Assembly: GCA_029261715.1 (NCBI GenBank)
Contig: JAJDAT010000015.1
Span: 124,001 to 188,000 of the forward strand
Direction of reading: 5' to 3'
Source of the DNA: Nitrospinia bacterium
GTDB lineage: Bacteria > Nitrospinota > Nitrospinia > Nitrospinales > JAJDAT01
DNA: 64,000 nt
Below are positions 18,188-59,476 of the stretch, piece by piece. The notes under the pieces were generated by a model. The model had not been told where the DNA came from, did no database searches, and saw only the letters and a program-made list of their open reading frames with translations. The position numbers were made by a program, and so were the translations under genes. Position 1 is the stretch's first letter. Each line of letters starts with the position of its first letter.

Positions 18188-18964
18188 TTACTTCGAATTT
18201 ATATAAGAAATTAGCTTTAACCTAGATTTCACCCCCAGCTTCTGAAAAATAGATTTAATATGGGTTTTTACCGTTTCTAAGCTAATAAAAAGTAGCTTTG
18301 CTATCTCTTGATTATTCATACTATCTGTAATCAAATTACATATCTCTATTTCCCTTGGCGTTAACCCGATTTTTTCTAGATAAGAGTTAATTCGATGAGA
18401 TTTATTTTTATTGAGTAAATCGCTTATTTGATCTAAGTCAAGATTTCCTTCGACGTTTTTAACGTCATTTGCATCCGTTTTGATTGAGTCTTCAATTTTC
18501 TGAAAATCAAATATCTCTACCGCTTCTTCCAATCCCTTCTCTAACTTGGCGTTAACGTTTTCAAGTTGAATTTTTTCAAAACACCTTTGAAGTGTATGCA
18601 AAAGCTCAATCGGATCGAAGGGCTTAAATAAAATATCATAAGCTCCTTTCTTCAACGCTTCGACAGAAAAACTTTTCTGAGGATATGCAGTGACCAGCAC
18701 GGTTAAAACTTTTGGAGACAATTTGTTCAATGTTGAAATCAAATCAAATCCATTTTGTTTTCCTAAATAAATATCGACCAAAGCGACATGTGGATGAAAA
18801 TCTTTTAATTTTTCTAAAACTCCTTCTTCTGAATAAGCCAAATCAATTTTATAATCACTGACTTCAAGTAACTGACCTGTAATTTGGGCAAAGTCTCTAT
18901 CGTCATCAACAATCAATATTTTTTTGAGGGCTATATCAAAACCTATGTCTTTGCTATCTTTCAA
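18188..18964 (-). CDS. Response regulator, receiver plus LuxR-type helix-turn-helix (module 1)
   Basis: This 258-residue regulator has an N-terminal receiver domain with the acidic pair in ILIVDDD, the phospho-acceptor Asp64 in ALVDIYLG, a Thr in VLVTAYP and the Lys in LFKPFD. A linker of about 60 residues, longer than in NarL-type proteins, leads to a C-terminal LuxR helix-turn-helix (GLTPREIEICNLITDSMNNQEIAKLLFISLETVKTHIKSIFQKLGV). It starts six bases after the kinase gene, so both form one operon. It is the likely target of that kinase. A perfect-arm palindrome just upstream of the kinase gene (20507-20524) could be its binding site. Confidence 0.92.
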   Translation of the reverse strand: MKDSKDIGFDIALKKILIVDDDRDFAQITGQLLEVSDYKIDLAYSEEGVLEKLKDFHPHVALVDIYLGKQNGFDLISTLNKLSPKVLTVLVTAYPQKSFSVEALKKGAYDILFKPFDPIELLHTLQRCFEKIQLENVNAKLEKGLEEAVEIFDFQKIEDSIKTDANDVKNVEGNLDLDQISDLLNKNKSHRINSYLEKIGLTPREIEICNLITDSMNNQEIAKLLFISLETVKTHIKSIFQKLGVKSRLKLISYINSK

Positions 18965-18970
18965 AATCTT

Positions 18971-20461
18971 TTACACATTTAGAGTTATTAAAGGAAGCCA
19001 CAATTTAACAGTCGTGTTCTGTTCTGGCTGACTTTCAATTTCAACACCACCGTTATGTTCCTGCATAATTTCTTTGATAATCGACAATCCTAACCCGACG
19101 CCAAAGCTTTTTGTGCTAAACAAGGGAGTGAAAATCTTTTCTAAATCTGTAGACGCAATCCCTATTCCATTATCTATGAAGTAAATTTCGACTTGATTTT
19201 CTTTTCTTAAAGTTTTTATTATTATTTGATCTATTTTTTCTTTTTGATTAAAAATATCATGGTTCTTTTTCTCTGATAAAGCATGAAACGCATTTTCTAA
19301 TACATTTAATACAACTCGACGAAATCGTTCTCTATCAATTTCAACAACTGCGTTTGACAAAAAATTCCCATCAATTTTAACGCCATCCGGGAAATTCACT
19401 TCGCCTAATAGTTCATATAGCCAAGAATCAATTTCAATATTTTCAGTTTTCTTAATATTTGGATTTGCAAAGTCCAAAAGATCATCAATGATCAAATTAC
19501 AACGTAAAATATTACGTTCTATAATTTCTAAAGTTGGCTCCACATTAAAATCCCCTTTTTGTATTAACTTTTCTACAGTAAAAAGTCCCGTTCGCACTGT
19601 TCCAAGAGGATTACGAAGCTCATGACTAACTTTAGCTGACAATTCTCCTAATAAAGCGAGTCTTTCTTTTTGAAGTAATTCGGCTTGAGTTTTTTCTAAT
19701 TCTTCAGTTCTTTCATTGACTAAGGTTTCTAAGCGGTCGCGGTATTTTAATAATTCCTGATTTCTATTTTGAATCTGCGACAACATTTCATTAAAACCTG
19801 CGTACAATTTTCCTATTTCATCTTTCCCTGAATATTCCGGAGCTCTAATCGAGTAATCGGGTACCTGAGAAATTTTATCCACTATATCTGAGAGAAAACG
19901 AATCGGTGTTGAAACAATTCCTTGAAGAAATAGAGATAAAATATAAGCAATAAATAAAGTGAATAATAATATTAAAATTACATTTTGAGTGCGTTTTTTT
20001 ACTTGAGCTTTAATCCCTTCAACATGAGCGTATAAGAAAATTTTCCCAACTTCTTTTCCTTTTAAAAGAATAGGACTCAACGCTTCAAAATGGTCAGAAA
20101 AAATTAAATAACCGTTATTTTTTAAGTTTGGGTTTGGAAGCGTTTTATTTTCAACCCTCGAAAATTTTGCAAATACTTCTCCTTTTGAATCATAAATTGC
20201 GGCAAATTCTATTTGAGGCTCGCTTTTTAGAGAAGCGAGTATTTTATTTGCAAAAGACGCATCTTTAAAAACGAGAGGAGAAAGCACGTTAACGCCTATT
20301 GTCTTGGCTAATACAGTTAAATGCTGAGCCATTTCCTCTTTAAATTCACTGAGATCGTTATAAACAACGATACTGCTATGAAGAACTAAGGTAAATATCA
20401 CAAGCGAAAGTAAAATAAAAATCATCTTCCGCTTAAGAGTCATTTTCCCCAAAAAACTCAT
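18971..20461 (-). CDS. CHASE8-HAMP sensor histidine kinase (HisKA type, module 1)
   Basis: This 496-residue membrane kinase has a first helix at 13-33, a periplasmic CHASE8-like domain at 34-158 (YNDLSEF, IEFAAIYDSKGEVFAKFSR, ILLKGKEVGKIFLYA) and a second helix at 160-181. HAMP follows (DYSIRAPEYSGKDEIGKLYAGFNEML), then a coiled coil, a HisKA domain with His280 in VSHELRNPLG, and a HATPase domain (NVLENAFHAL, IDNGIGI, GVGLGLSIIKEI). The sensor half strongly resembles that of the second kinase at 51594-53033, although the kinase halves are of different classes. In the Pseudomonas YfiN system the same CHASE8-HAMP arrangement receives YfiR inhibition; a yfiR-like gene lies upstream here. Confidence 0.93.
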   Translation of the reverse strand: MSFLGKMTLKRKMIFILLSLVIFTLVLHSSIVVYNDLSEFKEEMAQHLTVLAKTIGVNVLSPLVFKDASFANKILASLKSEPQIEFAAIYDSKGEVFAKFSRVENKTLPNPNLKNNGYLIFSDHFEALSPILLKGKEVGKIFLYAHVEGIKAQVKKRTQNVILILLFTLFIAYILSLFLQGIVSTPIRFLSDIVDKISQVPDYSIRAPEYSGKDEIGKLYAGFNEMLSQIQNRNQELLKYRDRLETLVNERTEELEKTQAELLQKERLALLGELSAKVSHELRNPLGTVRTGLFTVEKLIQKGDFNVEPTLEIIERNILRCNLIIDDLLDFANPNIKKTENIEIDSWLYELLGEVNFPDGVKIDGNFLSNAVVEIDRERFRRVVLNVLENAFHALSEKKNHDIFNQKEKIDQIIIKTLRKENQVEIYFIDNGIGIASTDLEKIFTPLFSTKSFGVGLGLSIIKEIMQEHNGGVEIESQPEQNTTVKLWLPLITLNV

Positions 20462-20506
20462 TTATTAACTCACTTATATTTGCTTCTTTTTTAATTCGAA
20501 TTAGTC

Positions 20507-20524
20507 ACTATCTACCTAGATAGT
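20507..20524. promoter_or_regulatory. 18-bp palindrome upstream of the module 1 kinase, candidate operator
   Basis: ACTATCTACCTAGATAGT has two perfect 8-bp arms around CC and lies 45 bases before the kinase start. LuxR/NarL-type regulators bind sites of about this size, so autoregulation by the module 1 regulator is a reasonable inference. The rest of the 366-base gap (20462-20827) shows no gene. Confidence 0.5.
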
Positions 20525-20827
20525 TCTTCGAAAACTGGGAGCAAACAAAAAAACATTAACTTCTATTCCTATAGATTTAATAATCAAACACACTTTCTTG
20601 CGTTGGTTAATCCTACTCTTTCTCCAATAATATTAACAGCCTAATTATAGGCATACAGGCAATTCAAATAAGAGAAATAAACTAAGAAAATTATTAAAGA
20701 ATTGAAATTGAGAATTAAGGAATGAAGACCTTTTTTCTATATTCTCAAAGGCGGGATTAACGTATTAATTAAAACGATTAGACCAAAACGTTATGAAATT
20801 AGCTTTAGTAAAGGGAAGGAAGATCGT

Positions 20828-21478
20828 TTAATTCAAGCCTAAAGCACTTCTTTTTATCGGGGCATTGGCATATTCAAAACCTGATTCTTCAATTAATTCA
20901 GAAGCGTTCAGCGCAAGTTTAAGTAATTGAGAGCTTAATTCTAAGCCGGAAGATTCTATAGCGGATTTATTGATCTTAAAGTTTAAGTTTCCTCTATTAA
21001 CCACTAACTCAACGCCTCCACCAGAATTCGAAAATCCCATATTTTCACCAACGATTAAGACAGGTTTTTTATTGGCAAAGTTTAATATAGAACTCAAAGG
21101 TGGGCTTCCTACTTCTCTAACAAATAAAATATGGCAATCTAGAATATGTTCAAGAGGAACATCATATTTTATTGCGATTGATTTACCTCTCAATTCATGC
21201 TTTGGCTCCAGCCCACCTAATGATTGTATATCGGAAGTTCTTCCCGATACACAGAGGACCCATTTGTCTTCTGATAATGAAACTTTAGATTTATTAGGCC
21301 AATCGACATAAAAAAACAAATTATAGATGAGGCCCATCTTAAGAGCTTCTTCACTTAATTTCTCTTCTGCAGAAAATGCCATAGAAGGCATTCCACTGAA
21401 AAATATAACTGTCACGAGTAAACAGTAAACAGAAAATCGGTAGGTTTTATAAATGATAGATGTTGCTAGTTTTAGCAT
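20828..21478 (-). CDS. YfiR-family (DUF4154) periplasmic protein, module 1
   Basis: This 216-residue protein has a signal peptide (CLLVTVIFFSGMPSMAFSA, cleavage near residue 36). The mature part fits YfiR: MGLIYNLFFYVDWP, WVLCVSG, DCHILFVRE, PVLIVGENMGFSNSGGGVELV, LNFKINKSAIESSGLELSSQLLKLA. Cys76 and Cys115 are 39 residues apart, the same spacing as one structural disulfide of Pseudomonas YfiR; the second pair is absent. YfiR represses a CHASE8 sensor in the periplasm and responds to redox state. Here its likely partner is the CHASE8 kinase downstream. It is divergent from a TonB receptor gene. Confidence 0.9.
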   Translation of the reverse strand: MLKLATSIIYKTYRFSVYCLLVTVIFFSGMPSMAFSAEEKLSEEALKMGLIYNLFFYVDWPNKSKVSLSEDKWVLCVSGRTSDIQSLGGLEPKHELRGKSIAIKYDVPLEHILDCHILFVREVGSPPLSSILNFANKKPVLIVGENMGFSNSGGGVELVVNRGNLNFKINKSAIESSGLELSSQLLKLALNASELIEESGFEYANAPIKRSALGLN

Positions 21479-21856
21479 TTCTTTTAAATTAAGCTTTAAA
21501 ACTATCCAGTTTTAACTTTTTTAATTGAATTAAATGAATGTAATATTCAGTTAAAAGATCAAAATATTTTTTAAAATTTTAACGCTGTTTTTTTTAATAT
21601 AACAGATCATGTTGATTTAATTATATATTTTTAAAATCATTTCCGCAGTGACCCACATCACATATTAGAAGTTGGTTTTTAGAAAAAAGACATTCACTTC
21701 TTTAAAACCTCATTCTTCAGTGATTTTCGTAAGACGAATAAAAAAAGAAAAAGGTTTTTTGATATTAAGAGTTAAAGACTTTTTCCAGGAAAAATTTGCT
21801 ATATTTACTAACAATTTCACGAGAAAAACCTTAAAAAACCAGTCAGGAAAACTATT
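21479..21856. promoter_or_regulatory. Divergent promoter region between yfiR-like and TonB receptor genes
   Basis: This very AT-rich 378-base region must contain the promoters for both divergent genes. It holds an inverted repeat AAAACTATCCAGTTTT (21498-21513), 20 bases upstream of the yfiR-like start, which shares the ACTATC core with the palindrome at 20507. No gene was found in it. Confidence 0.4.
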
Positions 21857-23899
21857 TTGAGATTTACCACAGGCATTGCATTAATTTTTTTCGTCCTGTT
21901 TGCAAAATCTACCTCTTCTGCTCCGTTAGAAAATGCAAATCAGATTCAAGCCTCAGGTCAAAAGGTCACAGCCTTAATGAAAGCGACTTCCTTGAGTCTG
22001 CCAGAAATAATCAACATGAAAGTTTCCACGCCCTCTAGAAAAGAAGAGAAGCTATTTAAAACATCCTCGGCTATTTATGTCATCACTAAAGAAGAAATCC
22101 GGCGCTCGGGTCTAAATACCGTTCCCGAATTACTACGATTAGTTCCTGGGGTACAAGTTGCAAGATTAAATTCTAATGATTGGGCCGTAGGCGTACGCGG
22201 TCAAAAAGGAAGACTTACTTCTAATTTACTCGTATTAATGGATGGTCGCGCCATTTACTCTCCAATCTTAGGCGGGACTTTCTGGAGTCAACAATCTTTC
22301 ATTCTAGAAAACATTGAACGTATTGAAGTCATACGAGGGCCTGGGGCAACGCTTTGGGGACCAAACGCCTTTAATGGAATCATAAATATCATCACCAAAA
22401 ACTCAAACTTAACTCAAAATAATTTAATATCTGGAGGAACTGGGACCGAAGATAAAGGAGTTGCAAACTTACGTTTTAGCGGAAAAATTAAAAAGGATTT
22501 CACCTATCGAGTTAGCGCACAATATTTTAAAACAGACGAATATGTTCTATCTAATGGCGAAAACGCACGAGACAACGCTAATGGAGAAAGAGCAGAATTT
22601 CGTATGGATTGGGAAAAATCTTTAAAGAATTCATTTTCATTCCAAGGAGCTTATTCTAAAAATAAGTTCATGAATCCTGGTTCAGATTTAGGGGTTCCTG
22701 TTTCATTAACACAACCTTTTGCAGTCCAAAAAGATTCTAATGCAATTCTTGAAGAATACTATTTTCTAGGGCGGTGGAAACATACTAGCTCGAATCAGTC
22801 AGACATGGCGCTTCAGCTCTATTATGATTATTCAAATATTGAAGTGTCTGTTAATCCGAGAGTGCATACTTTTGACATAGACTTTCAACACAGGTCTTCA
22901 TTTTGGAAAAACAACGAAGTTTTGTGGGGCATTGGAAATAGAACATACTTTGATCGTTTTAATGAAACTTTTGATACTGTTTTTACCTCTGCAAGCAGAG
23001 TCACAAATATTTTCACTGCCTTCATTCAAGATCAAATAACCATCGTACCCAATAAACTAGCGTTAACCGTTGGATCAAAACTTCAAATCAATCCCTACAC
23101 AAAACCACTCTTTCATCCTACAGTCAGACTCACTTGGACTCCTAACGATAAAAACACATTATGGGCTGCCTTTTCCAGACCGACCAAAATACCCTCAAGG
23201 GGAGAAGATAACTCAGGTAGCATAAAAACCGCAATTGCGCTTTCTCCTGACGGAACGCCAATAGTATTCTCTACTTCCGGCAACTTAAACTCTGACGAAT
23301 ACTTATCTAATAATTATGAAGTGGGCTATCGTATTCAACTCAACGACAACATATTTGTGGACGCAACTGGCTTTTACTTTGATATTGAAAAAAACTTTTC
23401 TTTAAGACAAGAAACATTTTTCGAAACAAACCCTCAGCCCGAACATCTTGTAGTCGCAAACATTATTGGAAATGAAGGCTCCGGAGAATCTTATGGAATT
23501 GAATTGGCCACCAAATGGAAAGTTTTCGATTATTGGAAATTAAACTTTGCTTGGAATTGGCTAGAGAGAAATCAGTTTCCTGATTTCCAAAATATAGAAG
23601 AAGACGATCCAAAATTTCAATTCTCAGCGCGTTCTTATTTTGATTTGTTTCAAAATTTTGAAATCGATTCCGCTCTTTATTATGTAGGTCAAAATGCTCA
23701 TAAAGGAGTGCCCGGTTACACCCGGTTAGACTTACGATTGGGATGGCATCCTAAAAACAATTTAGAACTTAGCTTTTCAGCTCAAAACCTTCTGGACCCT
23801 CAACATCCCGAAGATATTCAATCTCCAGCGCTTCCACTTCCATTGGGTTTTTCCGAAGTTCAAAGGAGTTATTTTGGTAAATTAACCTATTTATTCTGA
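21857..23899 (+). CDS. TonB-dependent outer-membrane receptor, module 1
   Basis: This 680-residue receptor has a signal peptide (FTTGIALIFFVLFAKSTSSA), then an extension of about 45 residues. The plug domain follows (SAIYVITKEEIRRSGLNTVPELLRLVPGVQVARL, VLMDGRAIYSP, ERIEVIRGPGATLWGPNAFNGIINIITK). A 22-strand-type barrel ends in the aromatic terminus GKLTYLF. The plug wording matches the second receptor at 57073-59082, showing paralogy. The start is TTG, with AGGAAA eight bases upstream. The substrate cannot be read from sequence; siderophore, cobalamin or metal complexes are usual. It is divergent from a yfiR-like gene and followed by a Nudix gene 38 bases downstream. Confidence 0.93.
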   Translation: MRFTTGIALIFFVLFAKSTSSAPLENANQIQASGQKVTALMKATSLSLPEIINMKVSTPSRKEEKLFKTSSAIYVITKEEIRRSGLNTVPELLRLVPGVQVARLNSNDWAVGVRGQKGRLTSNLLVLMDGRAIYSPILGGTFWSQQSFILENIERIEVIRGPGATLWGPNAFNGIINIITKNSNLTQNNLISGGTGTEDKGVANLRFSGKIKKDFTYRVSAQYFKTDEYVLSNGENARDNANGERAEFRMDWEKSLKNSFSFQGAYSKNKFMNPGSDLGVPVSLTQPFAVQKDSNAILEEYYFLGRWKHTSSNQSDMALQLYYDYSNIEVSVNPRVHTFDIDFQHRSSFWKNNEVLWGIGNRTYFDRFNETFDTVFTSASRVTNIFTAFIQDQITIVPNKLALTVGSKLQINPYTKPLFHPTVRLTWTPNDKNTLWAAFSRPTKIPSRGEDNSGSIKTAIALSPDGTPIVFSTSGNLNSDEYLSNNYEVGYRIQLNDNIFVDATGFYFDIEKNFSLRQETFFETNPQPEHLVVANIIGNEGSGESYGIELATKWKVFDYWKLNFAWNWLERNQFPDFQNIEEDDPKFQFSARSYFDLFQNFEIDSALYYVGQNAHKGVPGYTRLDLRLGWHPKNNLELSFSAQNLLDPQHPEDIQSPALPLPLGFSEVQRSYFGKLTYLF

Positions 23900-46645: not shown

Positions 46646-48049
46646 TTAATGCCCTGATTTCAATTCTTCTACCGAGGGTAACTCCTCGTCAATCTCCTCA
46701 CCTTCGTGATGGTCGCTTGCAGCCAAGCGAATCTCCCCTACATGAGACGCTGTAGATTCTTCATCTGCAGGGGCTAAGGCTGGAATCACATCAGATTCAA
46801 CTTCAGTAGCTGCATGGGGTTCAGCTTCTTCACCATGCTCTTCGGCTGCTGCTTCTTCGTGGCCTTCAGACTCTTCTGCGGCTTCTTCACCATGCTCTTC
46901 GGCTGCTGCTTCTTCGTGGCCTTCAGACTCTTCTGCTGCTTCTTCACCATGTTCTTCGGCTGAAGCTTCTTCGTGGCCTTCAGACTCTTCTGCTGCTTCT
47001 TCACCGTGTTCTTCGGCAGAAGCTTCTTCTTCACCATCGCCAGATTCTTCTGCGGCTTCTTCACCATGTTCTTCGGCTGAAGCTTCTTCGTGGCCTTCAG
47101 ACTCTTCTGCTGCTTCTTCACCGTGTTCTTCGGCAGAAGCTTCTTCTTCACCATCGCCAGATTCTTCTGCAGCTTCTTCACCATGTTCTTCGGCAGAAGC
47201 TTCTTCTTCACCATCGCCAGATTCTTCTGCGGCTTCTTCACCATGTTCTTCGGCAGAAGCTTCTTCTTCACCATCGCCAGATTCTTCTGCGGCTTCTTCA
47301 CCGTGTTCTTCGGCAGAAGCTTCTTCTTCACCATCGCCAGATTCTTCTGCGGCTTCTTCACCATGTTCTTCGGCAGAAGCTTCTTCTTCACCATCGCCAG
47401 ATTCTTCTGCAGCTTCTTGATCCCCTGAAGCCGAAGAACCTTCCAATTTCTTTAATAAACTTTCAATATTAGAAACTACGCTATTTGAACTAGCTAACAC
47501 TTCAGAATCAGCATTCGCCGTTACGCCTTTAATTGCGACTAGAGCTCGTTTAAGCTCCATAATGGCCATTTTTTTCTCATAATCGCCTACCGCGTTCTCA
47601 AGCTTATGAAGGCCTTCATCTAAAGAGCCAACCTTCCCGTCAAGCTCAGAAATTGAAGAGTTAGTTTTTTCTAATCCATCTCCTACTGCCTTAACATCCG
47701 TATCCAATCTAGCAACTGAGGATTCAATCTTCTTATCTGCCTCAGATAAAGAGTTATCCAATCCGCTTATACGAGTTTCGAGATCGCTAATAAAATAAAA
47801 GTTAAACACCAAAGCCAACCCAGCGGCTCCTAACCCAACTATTGCGATCACTTTCATAAAACCCATTTCCTCTTGATCTTTATCAATTGGCTCAATGGGA
47901 GGCGCGCTACTGTGAGACTCCTCAGCAGAATAACTTTCTGAGCTACCCTGTTCATAATAAGTGCTGGCGTCTTCTCTTTCTTCTCTTTTAATGGCTTCTA
48001 TCCGCTCTTCTTGTGTTTTCTTCTCGGATTCGTTTTTTTTCTCGGTCAT
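46646..48049 (-). CDS. Membrane protein with coiled coil and highly acidic tandem-repeat tail
   Basis: This 467-residue protein has a charged cytoplasmic N-terminus (1-63), one membrane helix at 66-87 (VIAIVGLGAAGLALVFNFYF), and a coiled coil at about 90-165 made of leucine/serine heptads (LDNSLSEADKKIESSVARLD). From residue 212 to 409 there are about ten near-identical units of 19 or 20 residues (EEHGEEAAEESGDGEEEASA or EEHGEEAAEESEGHEEASA). The tail is extremely acidic with periodic histidines and would lie outside the inner membrane. Function is unknown; metal or cation binding, or spacing, are possible. GGAGAAATC before ATG supports the start. Confidence 0.85.
   Translation of the reverse strand: MTEKKNESEKKTQEERIEAIKREEREDASTYYEQGSSESYSAEESHSSAPPIEPIDKDQEEMGFMKVIAIVGLGAAGLALVFNFYFISDLETRISGLDNSLSEADKKIESSVARLDTDVKAVGDGLEKTNSSISELDGKVGSLDEGLHKLENAVGDYEKKMAIMELKRALVAIKGVTANADSEVLASSNSVVSNIESLLKKLEGSSASGDQEAAEESGDGEEEASAEEHGEEAAEESGDGEEEASAEEHGEEAAEESGDGEEEASAEEHGEEAAEESGDGEEEASAEEHGEEAAEESGDGEEEASAEEHGEEAAEESEGHEEASAEEHGEEAAEESGDGEEEASAEEHGEEAAEESEGHEEASAEEHGEEAAEESEGHEEAAAEEHGEEAAEESEGHEEAAAEEHGEEAEPHAATEVESDVIPALAPADEESTASHVGEIRLAASDHHEGEEIDEELPSVEELKSGH
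46823..47416. repeat. Coding tandem repeat, 57/60-bp units
   Basis: About ten units of 60 or 57 bp encode the acidic tail of the membrane protein. Five 60-bp copies at one end are nearly identical; the other end mixes 57-bp units. Because the period is a multiple of three, other frames stay open through it too. Confidence 0.9.
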
Positions 48050-49636: not shown

Positions 49637-50005
49637 TCAAACACTTACTAAACTGCCACAAATTTTAGATATCATGGGAAAATCTTTCGCTTTATCTAGA
49701 AAAAAATCCGCTCCTAATTTTTCGCATTTTTTGCGAAAAATTGGTAAAGAATGATTAGTTAAAATCATTATCTTTGTGGGATATTCTGTTGCCTTGACTA
49801 CTTTGATAAAGTCCATCCCGTTTCCATCAGGTAACTGAAGATCTAAGATCATTAAATCTGGTTTCAACCAGGGTAATACTTCTCTCGCTTCATTTAAACT
49901 AGCAACCCTACCAATGGACTGAACGTTTTTAATTTCAGATAACATGGATAAGATCCGTTCTCCAACCGGTTCTGAGTCATCAACAACCAAAACTTTCATT
50001 TTCAT
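49637..50005 (-). CDS. Stand-alone receiver-domain response regulator
   Basis: This 122-residue single receiver domain has all active residues: the acidic pair in VLVVDDS, phospho-acceptor Asp55 in LMILDLQLPD, Thr in MILTNHS and Lys in FLDKAKD. The ATG at 50005 is chosen because AAGGA lies four bases upstream; an in-frame upstream extension of 17 codons is less likely. With no output domain, it may relay phosphate or act by protein contact, as CheY-like proteins do. It follows a pseudo-receiver gene and module 2 on the same strand. Confidence 0.88.
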   Translation of the reverse strand: MKMKVLVVDDSEPVGERILSMLSEIKNVQSIGRVASLNEAREVLPWLKPDLMILDLQLPDGNGMDFIKVVKATEYPTKIMILTNHSLPIFRKKCEKLGADFFLDKAKDFPMISKICGSLVSV

Positions 50006-50113
50006 TATATCCTTCCAAATCATCTGTTTTTCATTCAACATAATTTTAAGTTTCAATATTTTTGGATTGGTTAATTTTCAAAAACGACATTGGTTATTCT
50101 TCCCTTAATACGA

Positions 50114-50518
50114 TCAAGAATTCGAAGCGGCATCAGCTTTAGAATCAAGCATTTTCTGGATCGTTTCGTCAAACGTCTCTAGATCAATAGGGCTTCCTGT
50201 GTAATAAAAAACTTGACCAAATAATATTTCTTTTTCATATAAAACCGCTTCTTTTTCGTTTACTAAGACAAGATAATTTGGATCTTCTTCAGGAAACTGG
50301 TATTTGATGGAGACCATTAATTCGGAAGCTAACATTTCGGGAAGTACGCTAGGGCAAATGATTAAACGATAACTTTTTTCTTTAAGATAGGATAAAACTC
50401 CTTCTGCCCCATTGACAATATCGACATTTCCATAACCTCGATTTTCTAATTTAACTTTAAGATATAGACTGTACAAAGTATTGTCGTCTACTATTAAAAT
50501 CTCAGCATTTTTAACCAT
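50114..50518 (-). CDS. Pseudo-receiver protein lacking the phospho-acceptor
   Basis: This 134-residue protein aligns with receiver domains: ILIVDDNTLYSLYLKVKLENRGY at the start, then the strand usually holding the phospho-acceptor reads LIICPSVLPEM, with Pro where Asp is expected. The conserved Lys before the last loop is also gone (YYTGSPIDL). It cannot be phosphorylated in the usual way. Such pseudo-receivers work as docking or anti-adaptor domains. It lies between the NarL-type module 2 and a normal stand-alone receiver, all on the same strand. Confidence 0.8.
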   Translation of the reverse strand: MVKNAEILIVDDNTLYSLYLKVKLENRGYGNVDIVNGAEGVLSYLKEKSYRLIICPSVLPEMLASELMVSIKYQFPEEDPNYLVLVNEKEAVLYEKEILFGQVFYYTGSPIDLETFDETIQKMLDSKADAASNS

Positions 50519-50943: not shown

Positions 50944-51591
50944 CTAAATATTTTCTACTAAATCGTTCTGGAGGGCGTATAAGGTGAGTTGAGCGTTATT
51001 CTTTATATTCATTTTTTCCAGAATACGAACACGATGGGTACTAATGGTATTGGGACTAACACAAAGCTCTTTAGCAATTTCAGAAACGGTTTTTCCAGAG
51101 GCTAATAAACACATAACTTGAAACTCACGATCGGAAAGAGTTTCATGAGGAGCTTTATCAGTATCAAAAACACTAAACGCAAGCTTTTCTGTAAGCTGTG
51201 GACTAATAAATTTAAACCCATCGTAAATTTTTCTAATAGCTCGAACAAGTTGATCTCCAGCGCTTTCTTTGGTCAAATACCCAGACGCCCCAGCTTTTAG
51301 ATACCTAACCGCAAAACGATCTTCTGAATACATGCTTAATACAAGCACTGGTAACTTGGGATAATTGAGCCTTATCTCCTTTAAGGTTTCTAACGACGGT
51401 TTTCCAGGCATTGATATATCTAATACAACAACATCAAGGTCATCGTTGGCAACTTTTTCTAAAACCTGTTGTCCACTCCCCGCTTCACATGCAACGACAA
51501 TATCATCCGTTTTTGAAAGAAGTTGCGCTAGACCTTCCCGAACGACAACATGATCGTCGGCGATTAGAACCTTTATTTTATTTTTTTTCAT
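50944..51591 (-). CDS. NarL/FixJ-type response regulator (module 2)
   Basis: This 215-residue regulator has a receiver with phospho-acceptor Asp58 (VVVLDISMPG), the acidic pair in VLIADDH and Lys in GYLTKES. A C-terminal LuxR-type helix-turn-helix follows (TLSDREFQVMCLLASGKTVSEIAKELCVSPNTISTHRVRILEKM). Length and linker are those of NarL/UhpA proteins. It starts two bases after the kinase gene ends, so they are tightly coupled; the HisKA_3 class of that kinase matches NarL-type partners. Operator-like palindromes at 50831 and 56965 are plausible targets. Confidence 0.94.
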   Translation of the reverse strand: MKKNKIKVLIADDHVVVREGLAQLLSKTDDIVVACEAGSGQQVLEKVANDDLDVVVLDISMPGKPSLETLKEIRLNYPKLPVLVLSMYSEDRFAVRYLKAGASGYLTKESAGDQLVRAIRKIYDGFKFISPQLTEKLAFSVFDTDKAPHETLSDREFQVMCLLASGKTVSEIAKELCVSPNTISTHRVRILEKMNIKNNAQLTLYALQNDLVENI

Positions 51592-51593
51592 TA

Positions 51594-53033
51594 TTACTTA
51601 ACTTGATAAACATTCATTTTTTCTTTGGCATCCATAAAACTATCTTCCAGAGGAATATTAACCCGAATCGAAGTTCCAAAACCGGATTGGCTTAAAATCA
51701 AAACTTCCCCTCCCCAAACGCGCGCGCGCTCCCGCATTCCCATTAATCCAAGCGATTGAGGATTAGACAGGTCAGGGGTTGAGATTCCTTTTCCATTATC
51801 AATAATTTCAAGCAATAAAGAATCTTTTATTTTTTGCAATTTTACCTGAATTTTTGAAGCGTCAGCATGTCGGGCGATATTTGTCAAAGTTTCCTGATAT
51901 ATCCTAAATAATGCCATTGCAAGATCAGGTTGTAAGGGTACTTCTTGAACGTTAAACTCCAACTTCCATTTTCCACCTATTCTTTCTTGAAAATCTTCAG
52001 CGTACCATTCTAGCGCTTCTGAAAGGCCAAGGTGATCCAAAACCTCTGGACGCAAATCGGTTGCAATTTTTCTAACTGTATCGATAGTTTGGTCAACAAA
52101 TACTAATATCCCCTCAATCTTTACGTCAAGATCGTTGGAGTCTTCTGGAAACATATTTTTTAAAGAAGTTAGATCCATTTTTAATGCCGTTAACATTTGC
52201 CCTAATTCGTCATGCACCTCTCTAGAAATTCGCGCGCTCTCTTCTTCTCTAATTGATTGCATCCTATTATTCAAATGACGAAGTTGATCGCATGAGTTTT
52301 CTAGATTTTGTTTGAATTCAACTAAGTCTTTATCCCTTACTTCGATTTGAGCCAACATCTCGTTAAATTGTTTGTAGAGTAATCCGATTTCATCAGAGCT
52401 GTCATGGTAAGCCCTAATAGAATAATCACCTTTTTGGGAAATACGTTTCTCCATAGCGGCTAAAGCAATGATAGGCTTCGAAATTATACTTTGCAGTGGA
52501 ATTGAAAGAGCTAACGAAATAGCCAAAGTAATCAATAAAATAAAACTTACAAGATAGATATAACTTTCAATCTGAGCGTTAAATTCATCCATGTCTGCAT
52601 AAAGGTATACCTTCCCGATGGACTTTCCTTTCAAAAAAATATTTTGAAATATTTCAAAATGTCCATCTATAAAATCATATGCTTTAGATTTTAAACTTGG
52701 GGGCTGAAAAAGAGAGGAAGAATTACGGGAGTACTGAACAAAAAGTTTGCCCTCCGCATCATAAAGCGCGGCAAATTCGACTTGTTTTTCTCTGCGTAAA
52801 AGAGATTCAAAGATTTCATTTCCTCTTTTAGAATCTTCGAATAGAAGAGCCGCTCGTGTCATACTTCCGGCAGAACCTGCTATAGCCAAGTTATGGCGAA
52901 CAAGGTTTTTTTTGAAAATACTGAGGTCGTTGTATGAAAACAGGCTGGTAGCAACTAATAGCGTTAATAACGCCATTGAAAGTAAAATTAAAATCAGTTT
53001 ACCACGAAGATTAAACCTCCTAAACCCGAGCAT
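51594..53033 (-). CDS. CHASE8-HAMP sensor histidine kinase (HisKA_3 type, module 2)
   Basis: This 479-residue membrane kinase has a first helix at 12-32, a periplasmic CHASE8-like domain at 33-155 (YNDLSIF, VEFAALYDAEGKLFVQYSR, IFLKGKSIGKVYLYAD) and a second helix at 160-181. HAMP follows (DYSIRAYHDSSDEIGLLYKQFNEML), then a HisKA_3 domain with His274 in EVHDELGQML, and a HATPase domain (IDNGKGIS, SLGLMGMRERA). The sensor half is a clear paralogue of the module 1 kinase, but the catalytic half is of the NarX/DegS class. Its start overlaps the yfiR-like stop by one base (TAATG), implying coupled synthesis with that periplasmic protein. Confidence 0.93.
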   Translation of the reverse strand: MLGFRRFNLRGKLILILLSMALLTLLVATSLFSYNDLSIFKKNLVRHNLAIAGSAGSMTRAALLFEDSKRGNEIFESLLRREKQVEFAALYDAEGKLFVQYSRNSSSLFQPPSLKSKAYDFIDGHFEIFQNIFLKGKSIGKVYLYADMDEFNAQIESYIYLVSFILLITLAISLALSIPLQSIISKPIIALAAMEKRISQKGDYSIRAYHDSSDEIGLLYKQFNEMLAQIEVRDKDLVEFKQNLENSCDQLRHLNNRMQSIREEESARISREVHDELGQMLTALKMDLTSLKNMFPEDSNDLDVKIEGILVFVDQTIDTVRKIATDLRPEVLDHLGLSEALEWYAEDFQERIGGKWKLEFNVQEVPLQPDLAMALFRIYQETLTNIARHADASKIQVKLQKIKDSLLLEIIDNGKGISTPDLSNPQSLGLMGMRERARVWGGEVLILSQSGFGTSIRVNIPLEDSFMDAKEKMNVYQVK

Positions 53034-53644
53034 TAATCAACTTCTAGCGCGATATCCAATAATTCTGAATCGACTCGAAGACCACTCCTTTTTATTGCCT
53101 CTTTATTGAGAGTAAATTGAATGGTGTCATTTTTAATTAGAAAATTGATTGCTGGCTTTCTCTCACCTTGCGACGGGGCTTCGCTAATGACTAAAACAGG
53201 GGAATTTCCTACTTTCTTGAGTATCTTGTCCATTAGGGAGTTTTCGACTTTTGGAACAAAAAGTATATGACAGTCGTACCATGGGTCCTTCATACCAAGT
53301 CGAAGAATACTCATTGGTCTTCCTTGATTATTCAAGTTCTCCGCTAAAACTTCTAAAAGATTCCCAAATGGATCGCGTCCAATTACGCACATTGAAAAAT
53401 CAAAAGGAGCATATAACGTATCGCTTAAAGCTGCAGTTTCTTCAGGCCATTGAATAAATTGGGTAAAATTATATAAAAACCCGGCTTTTAAAGCATACTC
53501 GACCGACTCATCCTTAAAAGCTAACGCCTTTCCATTCATCGTTAAAAACGAGAATGTGAAAACAACTAATAAGACCCAAAACTGTAGGATAGAACGACGA
53601 AAAGGAAATAATTCAGAAAATTGTTCTATAAATTTTTTAATCAT
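53033..53644 (-). CDS. YfiR-family (DUF4154) periplasmic protein, module 2
   Basis: This 203-residue protein has a signal segment at about 20-42 (WVLLVVFTFSFLTMNGKALA) and the YfiR core: AGFLYNFTQFIQWPEE, FSMCVIGRDPFG, DCHILFVPK, SPVLVISEAP, IQFTLNKEAIKRSGLRVDSELLDIA. Cys86 and Cys125 are 39 residues apart, exactly as in the module 1 copy. In Pseudomonas, YfiR binds the periplasmic CHASE8 domain of YfiN and keeps it off. Here it is translationally coupled to a CHASE8 kinase, so it is probably that kinase's periplasmic modulator. Confidence 0.92.
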   Translation of the reverse strand: MIKKFIEQFSELFPFRRSILQFWVLLVVFTFSFLTMNGKALAFKDESVEYALKAGFLYNFTQFIQWPEETAALSDTLYAPFDFSMCVIGRDPFGNLLEVLAENLNNQGRPMSILRLGMKDPWYDCHILFVPKVENSLMDKILKKVGNSPVLVISEAPSQGERKPAINFLIKNDTIQFTLNKEAIKRSGLRVDSELLDIALEVD

Positions 53645-53804
53645 TTATTTTTAATTTCTCAAGTATCTACTTCCAAGAATAGAATTAATTCAGTTCCATT
53701 AATTATTATACGACCTTACAAAAATATTTTTTCAAAAAAGTGGGCAAGACTTTTCCAAAAAGTTCAAAAAGTCACTTAAATCAAACTTTTTTTTAGCATT
53801 TTGA

Positions 53805-56762
53805 TCATGGCAAATCTTTTTTCAACGATACAAGTTTAAACCTCCAATTTTCCACATTTTCGTCCAATTCCAAGTGAGTCACAAGATAATAAAGCCGTTC
53901 CGCCGCTTTACCACCCGTGGCAAAACGATCTCGTAAAAAATACGGGGGAATGGATTGATAATACAATCCTACCTCTACGGATTTTGCTTCTGGAACCTCG
54001 CTAAGAGGAATTTGATAAGTTAAATGGTTCTTGCCAATTTCATTCGGTTGAGGATTGATCTGTTTTCCTTTTTCATATGGCGCCGTTTCTTCACTAAAAG
54101 GCCCGTATACCGACCAACCTTTAGGCAAAATTCGGTTATCTTTATAATCGTTAAACAAGCCTAAAAAACTAGTCGTTAGTTTTCCCTCGTCATTGGTTTC
54201 GCGGTTCTCATAAATTTGCACTTGGTTCTGCTTTGTAATTAGAGAATAATTATCCTGGAGTTCGCTAGGCTCACGAGTAAACTCACTCGGCAACCAATCG
54301 CCATTTTGATCTATCAAAACCCCAGCTGGCGAAGTTCTACCCGAAGACCAGAGAATTTGATTACCATCTGCTCCGCCAAGAACGCTAAATTGGAGAAAGG
54401 CGCGTCGAAAGCCAACACCTGTCGGAAATTTATGGCCGCCTAAATTGGTCACCGTAACTTTGGCTTCCAAATTCCCACCAACCTTCTTGAGACTATCGAT
54501 GTCTAACTTCGCAGTTTTATTCCTTGCCTGCCAAAGTATCTCCTCTTGCGATAAGTCAAGCCGGTCTACCGCATTCACTGTAGCTAAGGGAGGAGCCGGA
54601 ACCAATGGATCAGTTTTATTAAAACCCATAAGATCTGAAAACTGACTAAACATATCTGAAACAAAGTAATTCAAACCTACTAAAGTGTGGCGGCGGAATT
54701 CGGAATAAGGTTGCAACGTGATTTTTTTGCTCGAAGCCCTGTGTGTGGTATCTGGAAAATCTGGAGTTTCAATATTAGCTATCTCAAACGGAGGTAATGT
54801 TCCCGTTTTCCCCTGAGCTTGAAGTTTTGGCGGAAACCCATTAAGCATATGACATCCAGCGCACGTTACGTTATCAGTTTTAAAAGAGCTGTTATCCCAC
54901 TCCATCCAAGTTGTTTGCTCATTTGAATGGGAATAGTCGTTAAAAGGTTTTTTAACAACTCCTTGCGCATCTTTTAAAGGAATTTTTGGAGGTTGTACAG
55001 TATGGCACGATCCACAAAGACCGCTATCTTTAATTTGTTTGCCATATTTTGGAGTAATTCCAAGAGCCTGATTCATGGGGTACGTCGTTATATTCTGGTC
55101 TTGGACCGGACCATAAACTTCATTTGGAGGACCTACATGAAATTTTGCCGTAAAAGTGGAAGGTTCGCCTAAACCCTCGGGAGTAATATGATGGCACACA
55201 GTGCAGGACACACCATCGCGGGCTAAGCCGCCATATTTAGCATTCTTCGCTAACTCCTTGTCCTTACTTCCCGGTTGCGCGTAAAGCATCTTTTCGGTGA
55301 AGTTCTTAAATTTTTCGCCTTTTTTCTTTCGATCCAAATCATACTGCCGCTTCCCCATAACCGCGTGACAACTCAAACAGAGGTTGGAGATAGAATCTTT
55401 ATATCCTGGCCGGAGAATTTGTTCAGATTCCAACTGAGCGTGAAAAACAGGATCGCGCCCCGCTAACCCCATCAAAGAAACCGACCACTCTCCGTATGGC
55501 GACAAATTGTATTGATTATTTTCATCGCCAGCTACGATCATATTGGGCCAACGAAGATTTTGCAAATAGCTTGCATCGTGGCACCCAAAACAAGAATCGC
55601 TAGCAACAAACTCATCAAGACCTTCAACTGATGGAACCACATGGTCGGTCAAGAGATTCGAGGACAAGGCAAACTTCTTAACTTGACTCTTCGTAGGCAT
55701 ATTTTTTACAAAAGAAGGAGGATTATCTTTGAATAATTCCTTAAATAAATCCACCACGGGCTGATTGACATAAGTACTTCCTAAAGGAGGAGCCATGGAC
55801 AAAATATTTCCAACCGCAAAATTTCCATGAGTGCCTCTATCCTGGTTTTTCGACATATTTTTATCTTGTTCAGATGTTGGCGTCGAGTAAGGAGGCTGTT
55901 CAATATATGTAAAGGAAAGAACATTTTTACCTTCGATATTGTCCTTAGTCGCAAAGGTCAACTGGTCGTTATCTGCTGATGAATGACACGAAAGGCAAAA
56001 TGACAGCCCATATTGGGCGGATATGAAAAGTCTTTTGTCTGTAGTAGGACTCCAAGGTGGATAAAATAAATACCATAACCAACCGTCTTTGGTTGATTCG
56101 TTACTTCGGACCATAACTGCCCAGCCGTTAATTTCTTTCGGGTCCGGCGATTTCTCACTTGGCTGCGGGTCGCTGAAGAACATTTCCTTAATCATCACAG
56201 AATTATTTGCTATTTCTCCTTTACGATCACCTTTTAACCAGTCGACCATATCATCTGAATAATAGATACGGACACGCGCGTGTGTCATAAAACTCTGCCC
56301 GTTGATAAACGGACCGGTCATTCGGATATTGTCTTTTACTGAAGGATCGTGGTCGTGCTCCCAGGAATGGTAGCATTCAGAAACAAAAAAAAGCGACATG
56401 GCCCCGATTTGCCACAGAGGCACAGTAATCGTTTCTTTAGGAGGATTCATATCGGCTAATATCAGTTTAAAAGCTAAATTGGCAGCTTCACATAGCAATG
56501 AATTAGACGCTGCCTTTCCCTCTATAGCAGATATTATATCTTCAACAGCTTTCAAACGATCCTTCGGAACTTCAGCCATATTGATTATCTTATCTACACC
56601 TTTTATGTCGTTGATGTCTTTCTTTACGTCTTGTTTTACATCTTTAATGTCCCTTTCTATGTATTTTTCAATTTCTTCAATTACTAGAGCCTGGGATATA
56701 GATGTAAAAGGCAAAAAAAGGAGAGTAGAAATAATTATGAACGAGAATAATCTTGTGTGCAT
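53805..56762 (-). CDS. Hexahaem c-type cytochrome with a P460-like N-terminal region
   Basis: This 985-residue exported protein (signal FIIISTLLFLPFTSISQA) has six CxxCH motifs: CLSCH at 256, then CFGCH, CLSCH, CTVCH, CGSCH and CAGCH. The part up to the first haem (IKEMFF, GWAVMVRSNE, GWLWYLFYPPW, YGLSFCLSCH) has the wording of cytochrome P460-type proteins. The C-terminal 250 residues have no haem and are beta-rich (VTNLGGHKFPTGVGFRRAFLQF). It should carry or catalyse electron transfer in the periplasm or at the surface. It lies between the module 2 TonB receptor and yfiR-like genes on the same strand, with repeated operator-like motifs upstream. Confidence 0.88.
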   Translation of the reverse strand: MHTRLFSFIIISTLLFLPFTSISQALVIEEIEKYIERDIKDVKQDVKKDINDIKGVDKIINMAEVPKDRLKAVEDIISAIEGKAASNSLLCEAANLAFKLILADMNPPKETITVPLWQIGAMSLFFVSECYHSWEHDHDPSVKDNIRMTGPFINGQSFMTHARVRIYYSDDMVDWLKGDRKGEIANNSVMIKEMFFSDPQPSEKSPDPKEINGWAVMVRSNESTKDGWLWYLFYPPWSPTTDKRLFISAQYGLSFCLSCHSSADNDQLTFATKDNIEGKNVLSFTYIEQPPYSTPTSEQDKNMSKNQDRGTHGNFAVGNILSMAPPLGSTYVNQPVVDLFKELFKDNPPSFVKNMPTKSQVKKFALSSNLLTDHVVPSVEGLDEFVASDSCFGCHDASYLQNLRWPNMIVAGDENNQYNLSPYGEWSVSLMGLAGRDPVFHAQLESEQILRPGYKDSISNLCLSCHAVMGKRQYDLDRKKKGEKFKNFTEKMLYAQPGSKDKELAKNAKYGGLARDGVSCTVCHHITPEGLGEPSTFTAKFHVGPPNEVYGPVQDQNITTYPMNQALGITPKYGKQIKDSGLCGSCHTVQPPKIPLKDAQGVVKKPFNDYSHSNEQTTWMEWDNSSFKTDNVTCAGCHMLNGFPPKLQAQGKTGTLPPFEIANIETPDFPDTTHRASSKKITLQPYSEFRRHTLVGLNYFVSDMFSQFSDLMGFNKTDPLVPAPPLATVNAVDRLDLSQEEILWQARNKTAKLDIDSLKKVGGNLEAKVTVTNLGGHKFPTGVGFRRAFLQFSVLGGADGNQILWSSGRTSPAGVLIDQNGDWLPSEFTREPSELQDNYSLITKQNQVQIYENRETNDEGKLTTSFLGLFNDYKDNRILPKGWSVYGPFSEETAPYEKGKQINPQPNEIGKNHLTYQIPLSEVPEAKSVEVGLYYQSIPPYFLRDRFATGGKAAERLYYLVTHLELDENVENWRFKLVSLKKDLP

Positions 56763-56945
56763 TATCTACCTCCGAAAAATAGTTTGCTGTTTTTGACTTC
56801 TTAGAGAAAGACCTAACCAATTTTAGGCGAGCTAATTTAAAAAAGTTCCGATTTCAGTTTTCGAATGCGGCTATCTTCTTCCTTTTCTAACGTATTATCA
56901 AAAAAACAAACAAAAAGTTGTATCCCTCATGCCTTTATTTATTCC

Positions 56946-56982
56946 TAGTGATTTCCTTACACCCTGTAGTGATTTCCCTATA
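56946..56982. promoter_or_regulatory. Two direct repeats of TAGTGATTTCC before the cytochrome gene
   Basis: TAGTGATTTCCTTAC and TGTAGTGATTTCCCTATA lie 21 bp apart (two helical turns), about 180 bases upstream of the cytochrome start. The second copy matches the palindrome at 50831-50848 at 15 of 18 positions. They are candidate binding sites of the module 2 regulator. The rest of the gap 56763-57072 has no gene. Confidence 0.55.
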
Positions 56983-57072
56983 AATTAGAACCGTAACCAA
57001 TATTATTAATAGAAAAAAAGAATTTCATCCGCTCGAACGTCAAGAAAGCTACCGCTTGACAAAAGTTTTGCA

Positions 57073-59082
57073 TTAAAACTGCCATGTGAGTTTCCCATAA
57101 TAACCACGCGGAGTTTCCGTCGGAGCCGTGAATGAAACATCCGCCCCGACCGTTGATTCTGGGTGTCGCGAGTCTTGAAGATTCTGTCCCACTAAACTCA
57201 ATTCTAGATCTTTCGAAGGACGCCAGCCTAATCTCAAATCCAAGCGTGTATAGCTTGGAACTCTCTGATTTGGTAAAGCTCCGACATAATAAACCATTGT
57301 GTCGAACTCGAAGTTATATGGTAAATCGAGGAAGGACCTTAAGTTCCATTGAACGTCGGGGTCATTGTCTTCCGCGTTATCGTCATTCGGGAACAAGTTG
57401 ATATTTAGCCAAGTCAAAGACCCTTTTAATTGCCAATAATCAGTCGGTTCCCACTGAGCTGCGGCTTCAACTCCAAATATTTCTGCTTCTCTTGCGTGAG
57501 TAACATTTACAGGTAAAACAAGATGAGCTGGGCTAGGTTCAGCCTCAAAAAATGGGCTTCCTGTTGCAGTATCGAACAGATTCTCATATTCGTTAATATA
57601 AGACGTGAAATCGAATAGCAATCGATCGGTGGGTTGAATCCGATATCCAATTTCGTACGCGAGGAGCACATCGGCGGTTTCGTCTTGATCTGGAAAAACG
57701 CTGACATCTATTGGCGTCCCATCTCCGGTCGATGCAACGGAAAGCCGAATCCTTCCTCCTTTATCAAGCCGATTAGGAATTCGAACCGCCCGTGAAAAGG
57801 CCGTCCAAATTGTTTGCGTATTTGTAGGAGTCCAAGTAAACCGAACATTAGGCTCATATTCGAAACCGGTGAAACGGGTCAATTCAAACTTGGAACCCAC
57901 TGTCATAGTTAATCGGTTTTTTAATAGCTCTATCTCATCTTGGAAAAAGAGGTTACTATTTGTGTATTCTCTGCTATCAGGTAACGCTTGTATGGAAAAA
58001 CTATTGTCATATTCATCTATGATAGCTCGAATCCCCGCTCCCCAGACGATATGATGACGGTTGCGCCAGCGGAATTGGTGCTGAGCTTCTAGATCAAGAG
58101 TATTAATTTCTGAAGTGATCGTTGTAGCAGATCGGTATGCCCGATCATAAAAGGCCTGAACAGACAATTCAGATTGGTTGGGAAAAATATGCTTCCAGCG
58201 GCCCAACAAGTTGAAACCCGTGGTATCGGAATCGAAATCTTTGGTTTCCGTAAAAGGAGGAGTAAGAGAAACGACATTATTGAGACCTCTTACCCCGCTT
58301 TTACCGATATAATAATCTGCCAGAAGTGCATACGAATCACTTTTCGATTTATCCCAATCGGATCGAAACCCTGCGCGGGCAACTTCCCCGTCATCAAACG
58401 CTTCCTTGCCATCAGGGAATTCAAAAGTGTTTCGGTTGGTATATTTCGCAAACCCACGGTAAGCAATACCATTGTCAAGTGTTCCTCCATAGCGAACGGA
58501 CCCGATCCCTCTTTCTAAATTCCCGCTCACTCCGCTCACAACTCCGCCCTGGGTTTCATCACTATATTTTGTAATGATATTAATAACACCGTTGACAGCG
58601 TTCGATCCCCATATGGTGGCTCCGGGGCCCCGGATTACTTCGATACGATCTATATCTTCCAACATGGTATCCTGTTGATCCCAATACACCCCGGAAAACA
58701 ACGTGGAATAAACAACACGGCCGTCGATCAATACCAACAACTTGTCTGCAAAAATCTCGTTGAATCCACGAGAGGCAATTGCCCACTCGTTGTGACTATA
58801 TTGAGCCACCTCTAAACCAGGAGCCATACGAAGAGCTTCCATAATACTAGTCGCCCCAGAACGTCGAATATCCTCTTGCGTGATAACGTAAATCGCGGAA
58901 GCTGCGTCAAAAAACTTCTCTTCCCTTTTTGATACAGACGTAATGGTCATTTTGACTAAATTTTGCAAACTCGTCTTAGCTAACTTTAAAACAAGCTGCT
59001 CCTTACCCTCTTTTCCTTCAACCTTTTCAATTTGAAAAGCAAACGCTACCAAACAAACTAAAAAAAACACTCGAAACCACAT
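57073..59082 (-). CDS. TonB-dependent outer-membrane receptor, module 2
   Basis: This 669-residue receptor has a signal peptide (MWFRVFFLVCLVAFAFQI). The plug is near residues 45-175 (SAIYVITQEDIRRSGATSIMEALRMAPGLEVAQYS, VLIDGRVVYSTLFSG, DRIEVIRGPGATIWGSNAVNGVINIITK). The barrel ends in YYGKLTWQF with the usual terminal Phe. The ATG at 59082 is chosen because AGAGGA lies just upstream and the signal peptide starts there; an upstream in-frame ATG adds 21 unlikely residues. The plug and the final DLRLGW..NLELS-type strand resemble the module 1 receptor. The ligand is unknown. Confidence 0.93.
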   Translation of the reverse strand: MWFRVFFLVCLVAFAFQIEKVEGKEGKEQLVLKLAKTSLQNLVKMTITSVSKREEKFFDAASAIYVITQEDIRRSGATSIMEALRMAPGLEVAQYSHNEWAIASRGFNEIFADKLLVLIDGRVVYSTLFSGVYWDQQDTMLEDIDRIEVIRGPGATIWGSNAVNGVINIITKYSDETQGGVVSGVSGNLERGIGSVRYGGTLDNGIAYRGFAKYTNRNTFEFPDGKEAFDDGEVARAGFRSDWDKSKSDSYALLADYYIGKSGVRGLNNVVSLTPPFTETKDFDSDTTGFNLLGRWKHIFPNQSELSVQAFYDRAYRSATTITSEINTLDLEAQHQFRWRNRHHIVWGAGIRAIIDEYDNSFSIQALPDSREYTNSNLFFQDEIELLKNRLTMTVGSKFELTRFTGFEYEPNVRFTWTPTNTQTIWTAFSRAVRIPNRLDKGGRIRLSVASTGDGTPIDVSVFPDQDETADVLLAYEIGYRIQPTDRLLFDFTSYINEYENLFDTATGSPFFEAEPSPAHLVLPVNVTHAREAEIFGVEAAAQWEPTDYWQLKGSLTWLNINLFPNDDNAEDNDPDVQWNLRSFLDLPYNFEFDTMVYYVGALPNQRVPSYTRLDLRLGWRPSKDLELSLVGQNLQDSRHPESTVGADVSFTAPTETPRGYYGKLTWQF

Positions 59083-59476
59083 ATTTCCTCTCTTGGTTTT
59101 AAAGCTCGATAGAGAATCATCGACTTTGTTACTTTTTTGTAACATATTTCTCGAGAATTTTCTTTACCAAAAACTCATACAAACAAAATATTTATGCCAA
59201 GAGAGAGTTATAGATACCCTCCCTCAGACGGAAAAATGCTATTTGGATAACCCTATACTTTATATAAACTTTCTATTAAATTTATTCTTAATTTGATGAA
59301 TAAGACACCTCAGTAGTAAAACTTGAAATAAATCCATACCTGAGTTATAACTTCGCTAAGCCAATTAAATTTCTAAAAAGTCTTATATTTTATCGAAAAA
59401 TGAGGGCACTCAGTTAGACGCTCTAAAGAGCTTATTGAAATTGAAAAAATAAATGGAATTAAAAGGAGGCTAGAGA
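59083..59476. other. Divergent intergenic region
   Basis: This AT-rich gap of 394 bases should contain the promoters of the leftward TonB receptor and the rightward decarboxylase gene. The decarboxylase has AAGGAGG seven bases before its ATG. No other gene or repeat was recognised. Confidence 0.4.

Follow-up and report, generated by a model that had tools for sequence, protein, structure and literature searches.

Genes and features of the locus

Five intact open reading frames on the minus strand of the 64,000-nucleotide stretch of Nitrospinia DNA analysed here (the window) encode, in this order, a TonB-dependent receptor (TBDR), a secreted cytochrome, a YfiR-like periplasmic protein, a sensor histidine kinase and a response regulator (Table 1). 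Their order and places were as originally predicted, and Pfam confirmed their identities. The tight coupling claimed for the last three genes was found as well: the yfiR stop and the kinase start overlap by one base (TAATG), and 2 bases separate the kinase gene from the regulator gene. The cytochrome gene is flanked by gaps of 310 bases (to the TBDR gene) and 160 bases (to yfiR), so that a single five-gene operon is at most a possibility; promoter- and terminator-like matches were no more numerous than in shuffles. The TBDR gene likely begins at position 59082 (gene 57073-59082), a start preferred because its ribosome-binding site (GAGGAAAT-ATG) is better than that for 59145.

Table 1. Features of the receptor-YfiR-kinase locus, with positions in the window.
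Feature	Position	Strand	Evidence or remark
NarL/UvrY-type response regulator	50944..51591	-	Pfam Response_reg 5e-27 and GerE 2e-18
Sensor histidine kinase, TM-CHASE8-TM-HAMP-HisKA_3-HATPase_c (core)	51594..53033	-	Pfam CHASE8 6e-13, HisKA_3 1e-13
YfiR-like periplasmic protein with signal peptide (core)	53033..53644	-	Pfam PF13689 DUF4154 'YfiR/HmsC-like' 2e-35
Secreted 985-aa cytochrome, six CxxCH and Cytochrome_P460 (not core)	53805..56762	-	Pfam P460 1.5e-6
TBDR of the TOL_0244 type, no STN (core)	57073..59145	-	Pfam Plug 9e-21, barrel 2e-24
Tandem 14-nt repeat TARGGAAATCACTA, 21-nt spacing; candidate operator	56946..56980	-	~184 nt before the cytochrome start

A HisKA_3 and HATPase_c kinase beside a Response_reg and GerE partner makes up a two-component system. 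The phosphoacceptor of the kinase, His271, is nearly invariant, and the catalytic part resembles VraS and DesK structures. For the regulator, the nearest NCBIfam models were UvrY/GacA, MctR and NarL, all under cut-off, and a UvrY-type operator (TGTAAG-N6-CTTACA) was rejected as its matches were rarer than chance.

Two single-domain receiver genes (window 49637-50518), likewise on the minus strand, come directly downstream of the module and are possible further partners. Window 46646-48049 encodes a protein of 467 aa in which an acidic repeat (GDGEEEASAEEHGEEAAEES) recurs many times in nearly identical form. A paralogous set, module 1 (window 18188-23899), consists of a divergent TBDR, a YfiR, a CHASE8-HisKA kinase, which is of another kinase class, and a LuxR-type regulator.

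Conservation of the trio within the phylum

A neighbourhood survey was carried out on 77 genomes of the phylum, in which 63 DUF4154 loci were annotated with models built for this analysis. DUF4154 was present in 29 of the 77 genomes and CHASE8 above cut-off likewise in 29, with both in 27; presence or absence of the two was concordant in 73 of the 77 (Fisher p = 3e-16, genome kinship ignored). A TBDR was found no more than two genes upstream at 56 of the 63 DUF4154 loci (on the same strand in 53) and a CHASE8 kinase no more than two genes downstream at 46, both neighbours being present at 40 loci and neither at one, and some of the absent neighbours reflect contig ends. The gaps that separate yfiR from the downstream CHASE8 kinase gene mostly measured -35 to +30 bases, a 4-base overlap being frequent. 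The association of the three genes is thus far beyond chance, and the core of the module is TBDR, YfiR and CHASE8 kinase, a unit that reaches well beyond the window. Their order is kept in the window with one insert and is contiguous in most relatives.

The genome that contains the window (5.3 Mb, 52 contigs) encodes 14 DUF4154 and 12 CHASE8 genes. Eight of its ten TOL_0244-type receptors adjoin a DUF4154 gene (the window receptor is one gene away), and the remaining two sit in a tandem array beside a DUF4154 gene. One TOL_0244-type receptor gene (L012:14005-16017, G000:C14) carries an in-frame TAA that interrupts it and is likely a decaying copy; the adjacent yfiR is intact.

The trio is not uniform. 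In module 1 and at two further loci (L016, L061) the receptor is divergent, in several genomes TBDR-YfiR pairs occur without an adjoining kinase, and some CHASE8 kinases occur without a YfiR. At four loci (L064, L065, L101, L102) a conserved gene of ~183-193 aa comes after the kinase-less pair; that of L064, the only one scanned, matched no Pfam family.

Sensor and output domains

The periplasmic domain of the window kinase matched CHASE8 in the profile search, as had been predicted. The sensor half is indeed homologous to YfiN/DgcN, since the NCBIfam DgcN/YfiN model matched residues 9-259 at 3.5e-23. The same model was matched by 47 of the 53 CHASE8 proteins collected, and a model of YfiR-associated kinases by all 53. 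The replacement of the GGDEF domain by a histidine kinase extends to nearly the whole collection: HATPase_c was detected in 52 of the 53 proteins, HisKA in 41, receivers in 24, HisKA_3 in 3 and GGDEF in none. The HisKA_3/NarL output of the window is accordingly rare (3/53), and its form is common to L073 and L074, which also hold the closest relatives of the window YfiR (37% identity). A lack of cyclic-di-GMP enzymes was rejected as the cause of the kinase output; as 21 GGDEF domains are encoded elsewhere in the same genome, this output was not forced by a shortage of such enzymes.

Joint descent of YfiR and the CHASE8 sensor

Tree distances were compared over 46 YfiR-CHASE8 pairs, with 2000 shuffles of partners within genomes, which keep the species relationships. 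The correlation between YfiR and the periplasmic CHASE8 part was r = 0.77, above all 2000 shuffles (mean 0.34, maximum 0.66), and the result was robust when outliers were removed. Far lower values were obtained when YfiR was compared with the HATPase domains of these kinases (r = 0.27) and when CHASE8 was compared with the HATPase within its own polypeptide (r = 0.23). The YfiR trees thus follow the sensor and not the ATPase domain, a pattern to be expected of interacting partners that exchange their output domains, and one that supports YfiR and CHASE8 as such partners. Trees of linked genes may also agree through shared transfer; under linkage alone, however, agreement would be expected with the kinase core too, where it is far lower. 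The statistics demonstrate that YfiR and the sensor descended together; for contact they are indirect support and no proof. Together with the conserved neighbourhood they support YfiR and CHASE8 as a conserved pair. Receptor and YfiR trees agreed weakly (r = 0.19, p = 0.047), as is expected if receptors were exchanged or are mere suppliers of ligand.

Relation to named families and known systems

In a search of NCBIfam release 20 with the window proteins, the receptor, YfiR and the kinase's sensor half each had as best model one of three families with the same apparent partnership. These were NF053590 (TOL_0244 family TonB-dependent receptor; 1e-189, 632 bits, cut-off 645), NF053591 (TOL_0243 family YfiR-like periplasmic protein; 5.6e-29, 101 bits, cut-off 125) and NF053592 (sensor histidine kinase, YfiR-like protein-associated; 1.7e-51, 175 bits, cut-off 194). 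By these scores the window proteins are close relatives and not strict members of the catalogued trio, from which the window also differs in its HisKA_3 and NarL-type output and in the inserted cytochrome gene; the NF053590 cut-off is exceeded by three further receptors encoded in this genome. The trio is already recognised by the NCBI curators as three linked families, which lowers its novelty and leaves only the function undescribed. The original statement that the arrangement had not been functionally described therefore stands as regards function, as no functional study of a TBDR-YfiR-CHASE8 kinase trio was found in the full-text literature, where few subscription papers are covered, and is superseded as regards the arrangement itself.

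In Pseudomonas, YfiR inhibits YfiN, a CHASE8-HAMP sensor with a GGDEF cyclase. The window module shares the YfiR family and fold and the CHASE8-HAMP sensor with this YfiBNR system of P. aeruginosa (YfiR-DgcN-YfiB in E. coli), but has a histidine kinase where the latter has GGDEF and a TBDR where it has the OmpA-like lipoprotein YfiB; no OmpA-like domain was detected by Pfam in nine genes scanned around the module. An AlphaFold model of the window YfiR (pLDDT 87) found P. aeruginosa YfiR chains as its best 15 structural matches (2e-9). One of the two cysteine pairs of P. aeruginosa YfiR is retained: Cys86 and Cys125 of the window protein align with Cys71 and Cys110, a redox-labile pair (PMC4655355), whereas an equivalent of the Cys145-Cys152 disulfide, which is required for the stability of P. 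aeruginosa YfiR (PMC4655355), is absent.

The FecA-FecR-FecI system likewise combines an outer-membrane receptor with periplasmic and inner-membrane signalling proteins, but its STN domain, FecR and sigma factor were not found in the window module. STN was detected in none of 50 YfiR-linked receptors, by which STN-type signalling was rejected, and neither FecR nor a sigma factor was identified by Pfam in the neighbouring genes that were scanned.

The receptor itself is of the type of TOL_0244 of Thalassolituus oleivorans, which increases sevenfold with n-C28 alkane and is similar to OmpS (PMC6304351). OmpS of Alcanivorax dieselolei is reportedly essential for alkane detection, and chemotaxis proteins, not a YfiR or a CHASE8 kinase, are described downstream of it (PMC6304351).

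A probable trans-envelope relay and its alternatives

The set in the window is best read, with a probability of about 0.6, as a representative of a conserved module in which receptor, YfiR and kinase signal across the envelope as a YfiBNR-like relay, and its purpose is probably the sensing, outside the envelope, of a nutrient about to be imported. The relay may be depicted as follows: The TBDR in the outer membrane would bind and import its ligand. The YfiR-like protein in the periplasm would bind the CHASE8 domain of the kinase in the inner membrane and hold it in one state, which by analogy with YfiR and YfiN would be the off state, YfiR inhibiting and not activating the kinase. Occupancy of the receptor, its energised cycling or the imported ligand would alter the availability of YfiR; HAMP would relay the change, the kinase would autophosphorylate and the NarL-type regulator would shift transcription, its simplest target being the receptor's own gene. 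Relative to YfiBNR, the receptor would take the position of YfiB and the kinase that of the diguanylate cyclase; in P. aeruginosa, YfiR bridges YfiN of the inner and YfiB of the outer membrane (PMC4655355). Observed are the gene order with its conservation, the domains, the YfiR fold and the joint evolution of YfiR with the CHASE8 sensor; the inhibiting role of YfiR, the receptor as the input, the ligand and the target genes are inferred.

Counted against the relay are the weak match of receptor and YfiR trees, the missing STN domain, the kinase-less pairs, the YfiR-less kinases and the divergent receptors, and also the window scores just under the NCBIfam cut-offs. Tentatively, and at somewhat less than even odds, the TBDR might be the true input, and the module would then represent a class of TonB-dependent transmembrane signalling, with receptor occupancy being passed through YfiR to interchangeable CHASE8 kinases and no STN, FecR or sigma factor involved. 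To our knowledge, many bacteria have TBDRs with no known route by which the arrival of a substrate is reported to the cell. A conserved trio, with 14 YfiR genes in this genome, would offer a general route for such signalling, would open alkane sensing via OmpS-type receptors to testing, and would mark the YfiR-CHASE8 input as a portable cassette that is joined both to phosphorylation and to cyclic-di-GMP. If the TBDR is the true input, the YfiR-CHASE8 relay would be able to drive phosphorylation besides cyclic-di-GMP and could close the gap between OmpS-type receptors and the regulation of genes.

A rather unlikely alternative is a periplasmic sensor with two parts, YfiR and the CHASE8 kinase, that responds to the state of the envelope or to redox conditions (Cys86 and Cys125); the receptor would then be a mere regulated target and not the input. 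The weakly matching receptor trees and the divergent receptors of module 1, L016 and L061 would suit such a sensor, as would the co-occurrence of the cysteines, both of which are present in 33 of 64 YfiR sequences and neither in 24, with the second only in 7 and the first alone in none; the homologous pair in P. aeruginosa is redox-labile (PMC4655355). Yet the 24 sequences without the pair have the same gene order, and the kinase-less TBDR-YfiR pairs of several genomes suggest that receptor and YfiR belong together. A redox role for YfiR is possible, though 24 of the 64 sequences have neither cysteine, and the redox gating originally suggested has weak support from the correspondence of the pair with that of P. 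aeruginosa and from its co-occurrence.

It appears improbable that YfiR is instead a ligand-binding protein that takes over the solute brought in by the receptor before it acts on CHASE8, in the style of a periplasmic binding protein acting on a kinase. The next structural matches after YfiR were substrate-binding proteins and would agree with it, but these matches are weak (TM ~0.4-0.5), and the known YfiR works through protein contact (PMC4655355). At one locus (L067:6960-7934) a gene for an ABC_sub_bind protein separates yfiR from the kinase gene, which would favour such a ligand binder.

The cytochrome gene and the tandem repeat

Besides Cytochrome_P460, the cytochrome gave a sub-threshold MtrC/MtrF-like Pfam match. 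Among the 77 genomes of the phylum it has no homologue outside this one, and it is thus considered a local addition and was rejected as a conserved component of the module, contrary to its original inclusion in the system; the predicted control of uptake and electron-transfer genes by the module was likewise unsupported. A distant homologue was found on a Paracoccus plasmid, by Nqr-type genes and away from any YfiR gene. At L089, L090, L092, L093 and L098 (four other genomes) a gene of ~290 aa lies between the receptor gene and yfiR; the one scanned by Pfam, that of L090, encodes a GNAT acetyltransferase. The tandem repeat upstream of the cytochrome has exact copies nowhere else in the genome, these two being the only ones, and it was rejected as a shared regulon motif as its near-copies were no more than in a reversed-pattern control.

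That all five genes, the cytochrome included, make up one redox switch controlling uptake and electron transfer is very improbable: the shared strand and order, the P460 and multihaem domains and the repeat as a possible operator would fit it, but the cytochrome is confined to one genome between long gaps, its plasmid homologue stands by Nqr-type genes without YfiR, and an unrelated gene (GNAT) takes its place in other genomes.

Occurrence beyond the phylum

A contig scan with YfiR as the query recovered one relative only, and the trio is also present on a metagenome-assembled contig (L009). Pfam verified a TBDR, a YfiR and a CHASE8 hybrid kinase encoded by overlapping genes on two alphaproteobacterial plasmids, pSRL1 of Sphingobium indicum and a plasmid of Indioceanicola profundi. 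In Sphingobium sp. TomTYG65, the gene immediately after those for TBDR and YfiR encodes a hypothetical protein of 582 aa.
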